A stretch of 40,260 nucleotides of DNA, taken from contig DUMM01000124.1 in NCBI GenBank assembly GCA_012839845.1, positions 1 to 40,260 on the forward strand. The letters run 5' to 3'. Below, one piece after another: positions 21,565 to 33,210 of the stretch (position 1 is the first letter of the stretch; each line of letters opens with the position of its first letter). The position numbers and the translations under genes are program-made. This DNA is from Bacillota bacterium. GTDB taxonomy: Bacteria > Bacillota > Limnochordia > DTU087. The notes below the pieces were generated by a model that was given only the letters and a program-made list of their open reading frames with translations, was not told the DNA's origin and made no database searches.

Positions 21565-22311
21565 CTATAGATAGTACAGCATCGCAACCCCTACCGCTAC
21601 CCCCAGCACTCCGCCGAAGGTACCGCTGTGGCCCTCCGCATTTTCCTGGGCCTCGGGAATCAGCTCATCGAAGACAATATACAGCATGGCCCCCGCGGCA
21701 AAACTGGATGAGATGGCCAAAGTAGCCGTTGATACCCCTCCGATTAGGACCCCCAACAGGGCTCCGATACCTTCGGGGAGCCCGGCCACAACTGCTGCCG
21801 CTGCAACTCTCATACTGGCAATCCCTGCAGCTACCATGGGCCCCGCCATAGCCATACCCTCGGGGATGTTGTGGAGGAGAGTAGCCATCATCAGCCGCCA
21901 ACCCCGTGCCTGGGACGCGGCATATCCCGTTCCGATGGCTAAGCCCTCCGGTAAATTGTGCAGGGCAATCCCCAGGCTGAGCAAAATACTGAGCCGTAAG
22001 TAGCGGGCTCGCTGTTCCTCACCGCCAGCTACGTGCTGGTGGGGCACAACAAAATCCAACAAGAGGAGCAGCATGATGCCCAGCAGCAAACCGAAGAAGG
22101 TGTTGGTCGCCCCGCCGATGTGCAGGCTTTCCGGCAGCAAATCGACAAAAATCATGGCCAGCATCACACCGGCGGAAAATCCCAAGACAAAACTCAGAAC
22201 CTTTTTGCTCGGCTGACCAACACGAGCTATAATCAGTCCTCCAAGGCCTGTGCCGACGACACCAGCCAACAGCCCCAACAACGCAACCCGCCACACACTG
22301 TAGTCCATCGG
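21565..22311 (-). CDS. ZIP family metal transporter
   Basis: SILLSLGIALHNLPEGLAIGTGYA, MMATLLHNIPEGMAMAGPMVAAG, VVAGLPEGIGALLG: ZIP HNxPEG motifs. Start near MDYSVWRVALLG (ORF extends to 22392). Confidence 0.93.
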   Translation of the reverse strand, partial: PMDYSVWRVALLGLLAGVVGTGLGGLIIARVGQPSKKVLSFVLGFSAGVMLAMIFVDLLPESLHIGGATNTFFGLLLGIMLLLLLDFVVPHQHVAGGEEQRARYLRLSILLSLGIALHNLPEGLAIGTGYAASQARGWRLMMATLLHNIPEGMAMAGPMVAAGIASMRVAAAAVVAGLPEGIGALLGVLIGGVSTATLAISSSFAAGAMLYIVFDELIPEAQENAEGHSGTFGGVLGVAVGVAMLYYL

Positions 22312-22533
22312 CTTGTCCCACCCTCTTTCCCGATTTTCCAGACTGACTCCTAAAACCCAAAAGCTAACGTTTTTGGTCGACGGCTGCTGCATCTAGCCCT
22401 ATATTAGCATACTCTTCCAATTCCTTCTAGCAGAAGGATTCCGAGGCAACTGAGGGAAATAAAGACTAGCAGCTTTAGCCTGTGACTGAGGCTTTTCCTT
22501 CTAACACCTGACTAATTGTGAGGGGTCGTGAGA

Positions 22534-23954: not shown

Positions 23955-24046
23955 GGTCTTCTGTTGGTGACTCCATGGAAGGAAAATTCTGCTCCACAGC
24001 TAAGCTAACAAGAGAACCATCCGGCGGCAAAGAAGGAGCGAGTTCC

Positions 24047-24886
24047 ATGAGAGTCGATTACCATATGCACCTAGAAACGGGACCTCTAACCCTCGAATAT
24101 CTAGAGAGGTTCTGGCGGCAGGCGCAAAAAGCCGGGCTCGATGAGATCGGAATCAGCGAACACGGCCATAATTACAAGCAGTTCCGCAAGACCATGGAAC
24201 ACCTCTGGACAGGACAGAACACGTATCCTGAAGTCGTCCAGTGGCTGGAGAAGGATTTCTCGCGGGATTTGGATGAGTATGTAGCCCTGATCCAGGAAGG
24301 CAAGAAGCAGGGCTGGTCATTGAAACTCGGTCTGGAGGTAGACTATATCCCAGGCAAGGAGGCCGAAATAGCCGCCCTGATCGATGCCTATCCGTGGGAT
24401 TATGTCTTAGGATCTGTCCACTTCCTAGATAAGTGGGCATTCGACTTCTCCCCGGAAGTGGGTTGGCCCGAGAAAGATGTCAACAGCGCATATCAAGCGT
24501 ATTTCACCGCATTGACAAAGGCAGCTGCCAGCGGTCTATTTGACTCCATTACCCACCCCGATCTGATCAAGATCTTTCGCCACCGTCCCACCATATCCCT
24601 AGAGCCCTATTACGCAGAGCTGGCGGCAGCCTTGGCTTCGTCCGACACCTGTGTCGAGATCAACGCTGCAGGGCTGCGCAAACCGGTGGGACGAATTTAT
24701 CCAGAGCCGGAACTCTTGGTTAAGTGCCGGGAAGCTGGTGTACCCATTACCCTGGCTTGTGACGCCCACTATCCCGAGGACGTGGGTAAGGGCCTTGACG
24801 AAGCCATTGAGCTGGCCCGCTCCACAGGGTATACCCAAGTGGCCATCTTTACCGGCCGCCAGCGAACCCTTGTGCCCCTAGGTTGA
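24047..24886 (+). CDS. PHP domain phosphatase, histidinol-phosphatase (HisK/HisJ)-like
   Basis: MRVDYHMHLETGPLTLEYLERFW..., GISEHGHNYKQ, LGLEVDYIPGKEAEIAALIDAYPWDYVLGSVHFLD, ITHPDLIKIF, ITLACDAHYPEDVGKG. Start at ATG 24047 after AAGGAGCG. Confidence 0.9.
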   Translation: MRVDYHMHLETGPLTLEYLERFWRQAQKAGLDEIGISEHGHNYKQFRKTMEHLWTGQNTYPEVVQWLEKDFSRDLDEYVALIQEGKKQGWSLKLGLEVDYIPGKEAEIAALIDAYPWDYVLGSVHFLDKWAFDFSPEVGWPEKDVNSAYQAYFTALTKAAASGLFDSITHPDLIKIFRHRPTISLEPYYAELAAALASSDTCVEINAAGLRKPVGRIYPEPELLVKCREAGVPITLACDAHYPEDVGKGLDEAIELARSTGYTQVAIFTGRQRTLVPLG

Positions 24887-24969
24887 ACACAAACCAGATA
24901 ATGAAGGAAGTCACTCCCTCTTTGCAGAAAATTACACCGGAATCTGAACCAAGCTGCTGGGAGGGAGAG

Positions 24970-25974
24970 ATGGAAGTGTTGCGAATTGCTATGCTGAGCA
25001 GCTGGCACGTCCATGCCCCCGGTTACGCGCGGGATATCTTGGCCCGTTCTGATGCCAAGATCACGGCGGTGTGGGACGAGGATCCCCAACGGGGCGCGAA
25101 TTGGGCTGCAGAGCTTGGCGTACCCTTTGAAGAAGACTTGGACGCTGTGCTCGGCCGTTCCGATGTCGATGCAGTGGTTGTAAATGCCCCAACTAATCTC
25201 CACGCTGAGATTATGGTGGCCGCCGCCAATGCAGGTAAACACATATTCACCGAAAAGGTGATGGCCCCTACCGTCGAGGAATGTCGGGCCATCAGTGAAG
25301 CCGTGACTAAAGCAGGTGTGAGATTTTGCATATCCTTCCCCCAGCGGACCAGGCCCGTCAATCTGCTGGCCAAGAAGGTCATAGAGGACGGCCTGTTGGG
25401 GGATATAACAATGCTCCGGATCCGCAATGCCCATAACGGGGCAATAGCTGGCTGGCTGCCGGAGCATTTTTATGATCCTATCGCCTGCGGTGGAGGAGCG
25501 ATGATCGATTTGGGAGCCCATCCCATGTACCTTGCCCGCTGGTTAATGGGAGAGCCCCGGCGGATCGCCGCGCTGTTCAATTCCTTTACCGGCCGCCAGG
25601 TGGAGGATAACGCAGTGGCACTGATTGAATTTGCGAATAAAGCCATTGGTGTAATCGAAACTGGATTCGTATCCCACAACAGCCCCTTCTCCCTGGAGCT
25701 TTACGGCACAGAAGGGACATTCCTCGCGGGTGGACCGGAATCATCTGTGCGGATCAACTCCCGCAAACTGGAGCAAAGCGGCCATCAGGGCTGGTTCATA
25801 CCCACACGCTTGCCGGCACCCTTGCCCATGCCTTTGGATATGTGGATCCAGGGAATCTTGGAAGGCGAACCTATCCTTTTCGGCTTAGAAGAAGGCACTC
25901 AGCTTACAGAGCTCATGGAAGGTGCCGCACGTTCCTACCGGTCGGGTTCAGTTGTGGAATTCCCCCTGGACTGA
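24970..25974 (+). CDS. Gfo/Idh/MocA family oxidoreductase
   Basis: Rossmann N-term; DVDAVVVNAPTNLHAEIMVAAANAGKHIFTEKVMAPTVEECRAI; GGGAMIDLGAHPMYLARWLMG. Start at ATG 24970 after GGGAGGGAG. Confidence 0.92.
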   Translation: MEVLRIAMLSSWHVHAPGYARDILARSDAKITAVWDEDPQRGANWAAELGVPFEEDLDAVLGRSDVDAVVVNAPTNLHAEIMVAAANAGKHIFTEKVMAPTVEECRAISEAVTKAGVRFCISFPQRTRPVNLLAKKVIEDGLLGDITMLRIRNAHNGAIAGWLPEHFYDPIACGGGAMIDLGAHPMYLARWLMGEPRRIAALFNSFTGRQVEDNAVALIEFANKAIGVIETGFVSHNSPFSLELYGTEGTFLAGGPESSVRINSRKLEQSGHQGWFIPTRLPAPLPMPLDMWIQGILEGEPILFGLEEGTQLTELMEGAARSYRSGSVVEFPLD

Positions 25975-26080
25975 GGGCTTTTCCAGCAGCTGGCAGACAA
26001 AGAAAAGCAGCGGAACGGCAATGGTGAAAGGCGTTAACCCTTTGCTGCATCAGAGATCGACAGAAGTGGAGGCTGGGACT

Positions 26081-27064
26081 ATGTTAGCAGCTCGTTTTAT
26101 GAAAGTCGGGGATCTAAGGCTGGTGGAGGAGGATGTGCCGAAACCCGGGCCTGGGGAGATCCTGATTAGAGTCAAAGCAGCGGGAGTCTGCGGAACTGAC
26201 GCGCATATTATCAAAGGAGAGTCGGCATCTTCACCGCCGGTTATCCTCGGTCACGAGTATGCCGGCGAGGTTGTTGAACTTGGTGAAGGAGTAACCAACT
26301 TTCAGGTGGGCGATGGCGTTTGCGTCGATCCCAATATCTTTTGTCACAGCTGTTATTACTGCCACAACGGTAAAGTTCATCTCTGCTTAAACCTAACAGC
26401 TTTGGGCGTCAATATTGACGGCGGTTTTGCTGAATACTCGGTAGTTCCCGCTGCTCAAGCGCATCTACTTCCTCCCAACCTAAGCTTTGCCGCAGGAGCC
26501 TTCGTCGAACCGGTGGCCTGCTGTCTCCGGGGCCTAGAGCAGGCTCAAGTTCGTCCTGGAGATGAAGTGGCCATCCTGGGAGGCGGCCCCATCGGCTTAA
26601 TTCTGCTGCAGCTGGCAAAAGCTGCAGGGGGGCGGGTAACTCTCAGCGAGCCCATCCAGGCTAAGTGGGACTTAGCCAAAGAACTGGGGGCAGATCGCAC
26701 AGTACTCCCTGAAGAACTGCCCACCGATGCCTTTGATGTGGTCATTGAAGCAGCCGGTGCCAAGGCCGCTGTGGAGCAGTCGATTAGAATTGCCAGAAGG
26801 GGAGCTTCAGTGGTCTGGTTCGGCGTTTCACCCCAAGGCATGAAGGCAGAAATTGAGCCCCATGAAGTGTACCGCAAGGAACTCCGCATCGCCGGGTCCT
26901 TTATCAATCCCTTTACCAACGCCAGGGCCGTCAAACTGGTAGGGTCGGGGGCCGTCCGGGTAGAACCCCTTATCAGCCACCGCTTCTCGCTGAAAGATAT
27001 CCATGAAGCGTTAGCCGTACACTCATCCGGCAAAGCCAATAAAGTCATGATTGTCTTCGAGTAG
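26081..27064 (+). CDS. Zinc-dependent medium-chain dehydrogenase (sorbitol/threonine dehydrogenase-like)
   Basis: KAAGVCGTDAHIIKGE, VILGHEYAGEVVELGEGV, VDPNIFCHSCYYCHNGKVHLC, VAILGGGPIGLILLQLAKAAGG. GGAGG RBS before ATG 26081. Confidence 0.93.
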   Translation: MLAARFMKVGDLRLVEEDVPKPGPGEILIRVKAAGVCGTDAHIIKGESASSPPVILGHEYAGEVVELGEGVTNFQVGDGVCVDPNIFCHSCYYCHNGKVHLCLNLTALGVNIDGGFAEYSVVPAAQAHLLPPNLSFAAGAFVEPVACCLRGLEQAQVRPGDEVAILGGGPIGLILLQLAKAAGGRVTLSEPIQAKWDLAKELGADRTVLPEELPTDAFDVVIEAAGAKAAVEQSIRIARRGASVVWFGVSPQGMKAEIEPHEVYRKELRIAGSFINPFTNARAVKLVGSGAVRVEPLISHRFSLKDIHEALAVHSSGKANKVMIVFE

Positions 27065-27872: not shown

Positions 27873-29504
27873 TTAGTTTTCTTTGCTCCCAGCCTCGCCT
27901 TTTCCTTCACCTTCATCCTCATCGCCTGTCTCGATATTCCGCACCGAAGCCTCCAGATTGCTGGCGGTAACCGCTAACAGCTGCGAGGTGTTGCTGACCT
28001 CCTGTACTGTGGCCGACTGCTGCTGCGTAGCCGCTGCAATTTCTTCACTTCCGGCAGCTAGGCCTTCAGCAGCCCCCGCGATGGCCTGAATCTTGGAGCT
28101 CATAGTATCGATGGATTCGATGATCTGCCTCAGAAGCTCGGCGGCGTTCTCCACAGCACTGGCACCGTCAGCCACTGCCCGACTGCCCCGCTCCATGCTC
28201 TCCAATGTCTCATCGGACCGCTTAGCCACTCGAGAGATCAGCGCGGCGATCTCACCGGAAGCTTTGCTGGACCTTTCAGCCAGCCGCCGGACTTCCTCAG
28301 CCACTACTGCAAATCCCCGGCCCTGTTCACCAGCTCTAGCAGCTTCAATGGCAGCGTTCAGGGCCAGCAGGTTGATCTGATCGGCGATATCCGCGATGGT
28401 AGCGGTAATCGACTCTATCTTGCTGGTCTCCTGGTTCAGATCCCGCACCGAGTCAGCCAGCTGACCAACCACTGCCTCGATTTCGTCCATATGCTGCAGC
28501 ACATCATCCAGCTTTGCTGATCCCTCCCGGCCGGAGTTGGCGATGGATTCTGCGTTCTTGGCCATCTCGTTGGCATCGAAGCTCACCTGCTGCACGTGAG
28601 CGGCAAATTCCGATGCTGCCGAAGCCACTTCCTGGGTGGACGCAGTGATCTCATCCATTGCTCTGGCAACTTGGTGGCTGGTGTGGTTAATGCTCAGGGC
28701 CGACCGGCGGGCTTCAGCGACAATGCGCCGCACATGGGCAACAAACTCGTTGATGGCATCGGCCATTTTTTCACACTCATCCCCCGACTTGATGGATACC
28801 GAGCCAGTCAAGTCTCCACGGGACACTCTTTCTGCTAGGCCTAAGACGGCCTGCAGGGTGCGGTGAATACCCCTGGTAAAGCGCAGAACAAGGAGAATGC
28901 TGACCCCGAGGGAGATCAAGATAGCCGTCCAAAGGATCCTGGTAGTCTGAGCCTCCATCCTCTCTGCAGCCTTAACAGTGGCGGAAGCTGCTGACTGGGC
29001 ATCGACTCTCACATCTGCCAGTATTTGACGCACTTGGTTGAGGTTGGGTAACACTTTGGTCTGGTAATCAACGAGGATACCCTGCAGGGAGACACCGCTG
29101 TCCCTCAGTGCTAGGACTTCTCTTGCTCCTTGATGAAGCCGCTGGTGGGGAGTTTCCAGGCTGGCGATCTTCTTCTGCATGTTTTGGGGGAGCTGTAGGT
29201 ATTCGTCAGAGCCAACATAAGAGTAGAACCACCTGCCCAGGTTGCAGGCAGTGGGATCGAGCTGACCGGCGAACGGTTCTCCCAGGAGAATAGCGGTTAG
29301 GAGATCCACATCCCAAGCCAGATGATCAATTTCCCGCTCTGCCATAAAAGTGGCCAATTTCTCCTGGTCAATGGCTTGCCAATGCGCTGTCTTCCAGTTG
29401 TTCATCAACCGGAAAACAACACCGGTGCCAAAGAGCATTAGTGCGATTATAATACCAAAAGTGATCAGAAGCTTGCCTCTCATGGACGATAATCTGATTT
29501 TCAT
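27873..29504 (-). CDS. Methyl-accepting chemotaxis protein with CZB-like sensor segment
   Basis: TM1, HAMP region, signalling tip [48 protein letters not shown]-terminal DHLAW...[11 protein letters not shown]...HQRLHQGA. Start at ATG 29504 (AGGAAGG upstream). Confidence 0.93.
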
Positions 29505-29718
29505 GGCTAACCTTCCTAACCTCCTCACCAGTAAGAACCATCCTTGCACTTTTATACCCACAGAATTTAGAGTTTAATCGCAGGGCTTTGGAGAAATTGT
29601 TCGACCTGCAGTCTGCAAAGCAAGGCACTGTCATTCCACTACCGCATTAGGGGCATCAGCCTTGGGGCATACTGTGTTTATCGGCATAGAGTATTGGTGG
29701 AACCAAGGGTGATATGCG

Positions 29719-31778: not shown

Positions 31779-31813
31779 AAAAAGGACCGAACCCGGCCCG
31801 GGTTCAGTCCTTC
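31779..31813 (-). terminator. Intrinsic terminator downstream of the CCDD-tailed oxidoreductase gene
   Basis: Minus strand AAGGACTGAACCCGGGCCGGGTTCGGTCCTTTTTATG: long stem plus T-tract. Confidence 0.8.
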
Positions 31814-31830: not shown

Positions 31831-33003
31831 TTAGGCATCACAGCAGTCCTTGTCATCGCTGCAGCATTCTTCATCATCACAGCATTCTTCATCGTCGCAG
31901 CATGCATCATCACAGCATGCATCATCAAAGTATACCGGCTTGCCAGTCTTGGCCGATTCGTAGATTGCCTCCAAGATCTGAGTGACAACATAAGCCTCCC
32001 TAGGCTTGACCAGCGGTTCAGTGTCATTGACAATGCAGTCAATGAAATGCTTGGCCTCGGCAAAACCGGCATCCTGATGCCTGGCCTCGTAGAAGGCTAC
32101 TCCCTGGCCGTACAAATCAGGCTTGGTTGTGTAGAGCTTGCTGAACTTCTCGCCGTTGATCCTCAAGCCGTCGAACATGTCAGCCCCTGCCTTCGTGCCG
32201 CAGAGAACACACATGGCTTCTCCTATCTGCAGTGTATTCAGAGCCCAGCTGGCCTCCAAAATCACCGTCATGCCGTTCTCGAACTGAATGAAACCGAAGG
32301 CAGAGTCCTCAGTGGTGAATTCCTTAGGATCCCAGGGACCCCAGGGGTTGGCTGCATTTTCTGTATCCGCCAGCTTCCTAAAGGTCACGCCCATAACGCT
32401 CTTCGGTTTGTAGTTGTTGGTGAGCCAGAGGGTGAGATCCAGAGCATGAGTGCCGATGTCGATGAGAGGACCGCCGCCCTGCCGCTCAGCATTTAAGAAA
32501 ATGCCCCAGGTCGGCACACCCCGGCGCCGGACGGCTAAAGCCTTGGCGAAATATATCTCGCCTAATTCGCCGGCATCGCACAGCTTCTTGAGGTACTGGG
32601 AATCAGGGCGAAAACGGTTCTGGTACCCTATGGTGAGCTTCTTGCCGGTCCGTTCCGCTGCTTCTACCATGGCCAGAGCCTGCTCAGAGTTGATGGCCAT
32701 GGGTTTCTCACACATGACGTGCTTGCCTGCTTCCAATGCTGCTACAGTCATCTCGGAATGCACATCATTGGGGGTTAGCACGTAGACAACATCGAGATCG
32801 TCCAGGGCGACAAGATCCCGGTAATCGGTGAAGACCTTGGCATCAGGAGTCCCGTATTGCTGAGCGCCTTTCTCTGCTCTTTCTTTGATGATGTCACAGA
32901 AAGCGACCATTTCTACATTGTCAAGTTTGGCTAAGCTAGGCATATGTTTGCCGTTAGCAATGCCGCCCACTCCAATTATACCGACCCTCAGTTTCTTGCT
33001 CAT
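31831..33003 (-). CDS. Gfo/Idh/MocA family oxidoreductase with Cys/Asp-rich C-terminal tail
   Basis: MSKKLRVGIIGVGGIANGKHMPSLAKLDNVEMVAFCDI, VYVLTPNDVHSEMTVAALEAGKHVMCEKPMAINSEQA, GGGPLIDIGTHALDLTLWL; ends in YFDDACCDDACCDDEECCDDEECCSDDKDCCDA. GGGAGGT RBS before ATG 33003. Confidence 0.94.
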   Translation of the reverse strand: MSKKLRVGIIGVGGIANGKHMPSLAKLDNVEMVAFCDIIKERAEKGAQQYGTPDAKVFTDYRDLVALDDLDVVYVLTPNDVHSEMTVAALEAGKHVMCEKPMAINSEQALAMVEAAERTGKKLTIGYQNRFRPDSQYLKKLCDAGELGEIYFAKALAVRRRGVPTWGIFLNAERQGGGPLIDIGTHALDLTLWLTNNYKPKSVMGVTFRKLADTENAANPWGPWDPKEFTTEDSAFGFIQFENGMTVILEASWALNTLQIGEAMCVLCGTKAGADMFDGLRINGEKFSKLYTTKPDLYGQGVAFYEARHQDAGFAEAKHFIDCIVNDTEPLVKPREAYVVTQILEAIYESAKTGKPVYFDDACCDDACCDDEECCDDEECCSDDKDCCDA

Positions 33004-33210
33004 TCCTGTACCTCCCCGCATTCTTATTAGCTGATAATTTTGATTGTTATACTTTGCCGTATTCTACAACTATGTTTCGCCACAGGGACAGAAGTTCCTC
33101 TTTATGGGAAGACTGCAAACTGCATCCGTTTTTGAATTCACGTTTACGCTGAAGGAGCGAAAGAGACTCTTCCCAGCAGCTGTCTGAAAGGCGCTTTTTC
33201 GACAGTCTGA

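Follow-up and report, generated by a model that had tools for sequence, protein, structure and literature searches.

The nearest characterised relative of the enzyme described here is DgpA, which oxidises the 3-hydroxyl group of C- and O-glycosides by means of a bound NAD in a ping-pong cycle, is apparently hexameric and requires no divalent metal (PMC11239390). Tails with repeated cysteine pairs occur in the plant HMA2 and HMA4 metal pumps, whose acidic C-terminal tails bind 3 Zn through 6 di-Cys motifs (HMA2) and ~10 Zn through 13 di-Cys motifs (HMA4), both with nanomolar affinity; when these CC motifs are mutated, function in planta is impaired (PMC6255694). Here, we analysed a 40,260-nucleotide stretch of DNA from a Bacillota bacterium (the window), which encodes a dehydrogenase with a DgpA-like core and a C-terminus of repeated cysteine pairs.

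Enzyme core and C-terminal tail

The gene, a Gfo/Idh/MocA oxidoreductase, occupies 31831..33021 on the minus strand and reads as an ORF of 396 aa; because codons 2-4 resemble a ribosome-binding site, translation likely starts at M7, the ATG at 33003. Pfam identifies an N-terminal NAD-binding Rossmann domain at residues 11-133 (PF01408, GFO_IDH_MocA, E 3.8e-31) and a C-terminal alpha/beta domain (PF22725, GFO_IDH_MocA_C3, E 1.9e-20; PF02894, GFO_IDH_MocA_C, E 1.8e-18), with which the fold match agrees, and no NCBIfam equivalog scored above its own cut-off. The nearest solved structures by both sequence and fold, well ahead of the rest, are DgpA1 (9m3d; 60% identity, E 1.7e-137) and DgpA (7xr9/7xre; 49-53% identity, E 1e-118 to 7xr9), with TM-scores of 0.91-0.93 over the target. 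The catalytic EKP motif (E99 K100 P101) and the GGGxxxDxGxH motif (GGGPLIDIGTH, G176-H186), given in alignment numbering, are invariant in 36 orthologues. Since sequence and fold both lie nearest to DgpA and the catalytic motifs are conserved, the enzyme is likely an NAD-dependent, DgpA-like glycoside 3-dehydrogenase, an assignment that indicates a candidate substrate class only. Genes of the DgpB/DgpC C-deglycosidase type were not found adjoining it.

The original prediction, an oxidoreductase ending in five CC pairs encoded by an imperfect tandem repeat with synonymous variation between its units, agrees with our results on each of these points. The translation ends in ...KPVYFDDACCDDACCDDEECCDDEECCSDDKDCCDA*, the same C-terminus as ...TGKPVYFDDACCDDACCDDEECCDDEECCSDDKDCCDA. 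A tail of 31 aa (31834..31926 on the minus strand, residues 366-396, DDACCDDACCDDEECCDDEECCSDDKDCCDA) begins after the last core strand, KPVYF, and carries 10 Cys arranged as five CC pairs among acidic residues. The corresponding units form an imperfect tandem array in the DNA (GATGATGCATGCTGT, GATGATGCATGCTGC, GACGATGAAGAATGCTGT, GATGATGAAGAATGCTGC and AGCGATGACAAGGACTGCTGT), which Tandem Repeats Finder places at 31853..31927 (minus strand) with periods of 15-18, made of 15- and 18-base units, and the synonymous variation between units was found as described.

To place this tail in its genome, we used a census of 1,404 non-redundant ORFs of at least 100 aa, drawn from sequence that covers 1.6 Mb (78%) of its 2.06 Mb. 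The tail has the highest Cys density per 30 residues of all of them, with 10 against 7 for the next best, and at the genome's Cys frequency of 1.1% the chance of 10 Cys in 29 residues is ~6e-13. A CC-x2-CC pattern gave 21 scattered matches over the genome; a looser search for Cys tails at the DNA level was swamped by thousands of chance matches and discarded as uninformative. In the AlphaFold model (pTM 0.85), the tail has a pLDDT of 34-42 against a core mean of 85, suggesting that it is probably disordered, and a disordered tail on an otherwise complete fold fits a ligand-binding appendage.

Distribution of the tail among relatives

Our homologue search (E <= 1e-60, paralogues counted) returned loci in 57 of 101 genomes, and a species-level genome collection supplied 80 further loci. 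Within the window's own taxonomic family (f1), a Cys-rich tail of 3-10 Cys is present in nine of the ten orthologues, window included. The tails vary in length and in their linkers, and the cysteines remain clustered. Following KPVYF, the window species (G000) has DDACCDDACCDDEECCDDEECCSDDKDCCDA and its relative G001 has KNGEKCCDVQECCDDDKECCDDDKGCCDA; the shorter tails are NDKDCCCCDS (G002), NDKDCCCDC (G003), DDNCCCCGC (G004), GGNGCCKCC (G005), NENKGCDKCC (G006), SDKNCCTCK (G008) and NNDCCCCKDC (G010). The exception is G007, which ends in DN and has no tail, indicating that the core reaction can proceed without one. In G009, an eleventh member, all that is present is a distant paralogue (43% identity), and in G011, from the same order as the window species, the orthologue ends in ND.

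None of the ~75 orthologues read outside the family, at 62-77% identity and mainly from Paenibacillus, Bacillus and relatives and other Bacillota, carries a Cys tail. A class-wide pattern search of 73 genomes confined C-termini of the type KPVYF..CC to f1, with the match in G021 counted by pattern alone; in-frame matches outside the family occurred in G012, G017, G021, G045 and G054, and in context those of G012, G017, G045 and G054 are not Gfo/Idh/MocA C-termini. Of the intact alignments obtained from 399 genomes sampled across the phylum, none outside f1 extended into the tail; a permissive search of the phylum for Gfo C-termini with CC was discarded because it matched too often by chance to be informative. 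With Gfo/Idh/MocA C-termini sampled almost wholly within Bacillota, these results agree with the original view that such a tail is no standard part of the Gfo/Idh/MocA family, and the prospect it had raised, that close orthologues might all lack the tail, is not what we found. The simplest reading of the sequences is that the tail is a vertically inherited trait of f1 that was lost in G007, and that the repeat is a later amplification.

Selection on the tail cysteines

A tree built from the core pairs G000 with G001 as sister species (100% bootstrap) within genus g1. Their cores differ by a dN of 0.028 and a dS of 0.87, and their tails, over 26 codons only, by a dN of 0.166. All eight shared Cys are nevertheless kept in register, and every Cys in G001 has a counterpart in G000. 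When the CC units are numbered back from the C-terminal end, all four in G001 correspond to the final four in G000, down to the third base of each of the eight Cys codons. The common ancestor therefore probably had four units or more, and G000 has one extra. If the cysteines evolved neutrally at the core synonymous rate, the probability of retaining all eight would be ~7e-7, or ~7e-4 at half that distance; these values are approximate, as the tail alignment was anchored on Cys. That the cysteines are intact despite a dS of 0.87 and changed linkers argues against a neutral microsatellite.

The original prediction took the synonymous variation between units as expected of a peptide under selection. 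For the cysteines this view is supported by sequence comparison, through the eight of eight retained at high divergence, their presence in nine of ten orthologues and the parallel tail on a second enzyme (below). It does not extend to the acidic residues, which we rejected as a conserved feature: the linkers change freely, the short tails do not share the acidic character, charge is not kept in relatives (NDKDCCCCDS, GGNGCCKCC, NNDCCCCKDC) and only Cys is kept.

A second cysteine-tailed dehydrogenase

Among the 1,404 ORFs, at least four Cys within the final 12 residues occur in just two: the window protein itself and a second protein, P0002, encoded at L207:1-801 (plus strand) on contig C67 of the same genome, with its N-terminus cut by the contig end. 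Both fall among the 10 Gfo/Idh/MocA ORFs (P 4.6e-5, in a test chosen after the data were seen). P0002 is nearest by sequence to PDB 3q2k and 3q2i and then to glucuronide-3-dehydrogenase; it belongs to a different subfamily from the window protein, with 27% identity over the aligned part. Its extension in the window species, PYVPGAPSCPERKGCCCSD, is basic, whereas the window tail is acidic, and follows a separate pattern, PYVPGAPSC-x4-6-CC. All 11 f1 genomes contain an exact match to the stretch YFPYVPGAP, which is absent from orthologues in the rest of the class, and the SC-x4-6-CC end was found in 8 of the 11. Alignments of P0002 orthologues outside f1 mostly end at about residue 250, where the extension starts. 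Thus, one bacterial family carries Cys-ended tails on two distant sugar dehydrogenases.

Genomic context

An intrinsic terminator read from the sequence (GGACTGAACCC..GGGTTCGGTCCTTTTT, 31779..31810 on the minus strand) lies ~20 bases past the stop codon, and all ten f1 members have a similar hairpin and T-run within tens of bases 3' of the stop, suggesting that the tail stops at the intended end of the transcript. With every frame intact in nine tailed genomes and a terminator directly 3' of the stop, we excluded a frameshift or assembly artefact. The terminator stem (GGACTG.ACCC..GGGTTCGGTCCTTTTT; also GGACTG.ACCC..GGGTTCGGTCC) is itself kept in most of the family, at window 31779-31810 (minus strand) and in the 3' flanks of L083-L091, beyond what a terminator apparently needs.

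The flanking genes encode a GNAT protein, a flippase-like protein, a VWA protein and a glycerol dehydrogenase-like protein, and the block of flippase, GNAT, Gfo and VWA genes is common to most of f1. No metal-handling operon emerges from the syntenic neighbours, which encode GNAT, flippase, VWA and chemoreceptor proteins. The tail-less G007 (L091, L003), the only such orthologue in f1, is also without the GNAT acetyltransferase gene, and a chemoreceptor gene adjoins its dehydrogenase. Elsewhere in the window, a ZIP-type zinc transporter (21565-22392, minus strand) and a chemoreceptor whose CZB domain is of the zinc-binding type (27873-29561, minus strand) lie less than 11 kb from the Cys-tailed enzyme, a proximity that is probably coincidental. 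The plus-strand genes at 23975-27064, which encode a PHP-domain protein, a Gfo/Idh/MocA protein without a Cys tail and a zinc-type alcohol dehydrogenase, possibly form a sugar or inositol pathway. On contig C101 of the same genome, a 776-aa ORF (L241:5505-7835, plus strand) ends in SCSLPGHVHQCC, a possible metal-binding C-terminus; its product is perhaps a heavy-metal P-type ATPase.

Possible functions of the tail

We infer, at about even probability and by sequence analogy, that the tail is a flexible ligand for a thiophilic metal (Zn, Cd, Cu or As). An otherwise ordinary DgpA-like dehydrogenase would have acquired a flexible tail with clustered Cys in one Bacillota family, and the cysteines would then have been amplified to five CC units in the window species and four in its sister. 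In the cytosol of an anaerobe, the reduced Cys pairs would bind the metal, probably helped by neighbouring acidic side chains; Zn(II) is the most likely ion, with Cd(II), Cu(I) and As(III) possible. By the ratio seen in the di-Cys tails of HMA2 and HMA4, ten Cys could hold ~2-3 ions on each subunit, and a hexameric enzyme of the DgpA kind could carry about a dozen. In that case the tail could buffer or accept metal, or it could form a metal-dependent clasp that joins subunits and makes assembly or activity respond to metal. Against this proposal stand the absence of a metal-handling operon among the neighbours, the tail-less orthologue of G007, the fact that DgpA needs no divalent metal (PMC11239390), and the possibility that short tails of 3-5 Cys serve other thiol chemistry.

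One such chemistry, which we consider unlikely, is thiol redox, in which vicinal Cys form intra- or inter-subunit disulfides that lock the oligomer or protect or regulate the enzyme under oxidants. Clustered vicinal cysteines on a flexible tail are chemically suited to this, and the C-terminal CC of mercuric reductase is a precedent for vicinal-Cys thiol chemistry. As the nearest characterised relative is hexameric (PMC11239390), six tails would also meet on one particle. However, the closest named records, biogas-type MAGs to judge by their isolate codes, make a reducing, anaerobic cytosol likely, and 8-10 Cys exceed the need of a redox pair.

It is more doubtful that the tail serves in docking, with the Cys cluster holding another protein either by itself or by way of a bridging metal, and so channels 3-keto sugars or electrons. 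The second Cys-tailed Gfo/Idh/MocA enzyme is a possible partner, given that Cys tails occur on two distant f1 enzymes of this type, acidic on one and basic on the other in the window species. However, the second enzyme and its tail are present in G009, where a close orthologue of the first is missing, the first tail is present in G010, where no CC end was detected on the second enzyme, charge is not conserved among relatives, and the two genes lie on different contigs.

A functionless, neutral or nearly neutral extension by replication slippage was already disfavoured by the cysteine retention and is quite improbable. It would account for the imperfect repeat of 15- and 18-base units, the five versus four units in sister species and the one tail-less relative, but eight of eight Cys persist at high synonymous divergence while the linkers diverge, the short, non-repetitive tails of other relatives indicate that the cysteines are older than the repeat, a second enzyme bears a parallel tail, and all frames are intact and end just before a terminator. 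Ligation of an iron-sulfur cluster that passes electrons from bound NADH to a ferredoxin-like acceptor is very improbable: the number of Cys would suffice and the lineage is probably anaerobic, but the CC/CCCC spacing differs from the CxxC patterns of known Fe-S sites and the tail is variable in length and predicted to be disordered.

A broader and rather doubtful proposal is that the family fitted at least two distant sugar dehydrogenases with independent Cys tails, either to make carbohydrate oxidation or enzyme assembly directly responsive to thiophilic metal inside the cell or to use abundant metabolic enzymes as a metal buffer. If the tails do bind metal, they would tie sugar oxidation to metal status or store metal on metabolic enzymes, and soluble carbohydrate enzymes with lineage-specific di-Cys metal tails would apparently be a new case. 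We found no paper in the open-licence literature that describes a Gfo/Idh/MocA protein as Cys-rich or as having a C-terminal tail, a result that speaks weakly for novelty. Neither the enzyme nor the chemistry is of a new kind; their combination, its restriction to f1 and its occurrence in two subfamilies appear undescribed in the incomplete open literature searched. The natural series of no tail, 3, 4, 5, 8 and 10 Cys on a near-identical core suits tests of how a disordered Cys tail gains function, and the tails could be probed cheaply, as their CC-x3-CC and CC-x4-CC units resemble biarsenical-dye tags (CCPGCC).

Comparison with known systems

The whole core of the window enzyme is like that of DgpA and DgpA1 (7xr9, 7xre, 9m3d), but the solved chains have no counterpart of the tail within the matched part, which ends at query residue 364 or earlier. 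SlyD is a soluble enzyme with a flexible C-terminal tail of metal ligands, His-rich and handling Ni; the layout is similar, but the window tail contains no His. Bacterial metallothioneins reach a similarly high Cys density as small stand-alone proteins, whereas the window tail is a 31-residue appendage on a 365-residue enzyme, and neither Pfam nor NCBIfam gives a metallothionein match in the window protein. The window tail is also like those of the plant Zn/Cd P-type ATPases HMA2 and HMA4: in each case CC pairs recur along a C-terminal extension of acidic character whose evolution outpaces that of the core, and in the window protein this extension is predicted to be disordered. The window protein has no P-type ATPase domain, as Pfam and NCBIfam give Gfo/Idh/MocA-type domains only. 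The HMA tails are of much greater length, with 470 residues in HMA4, and the zinc binding that we propose for the window tail has been measured for theirs; their host is a membrane metal pump, whereas the host of the window tail is a soluble sugar dehydrogenase.
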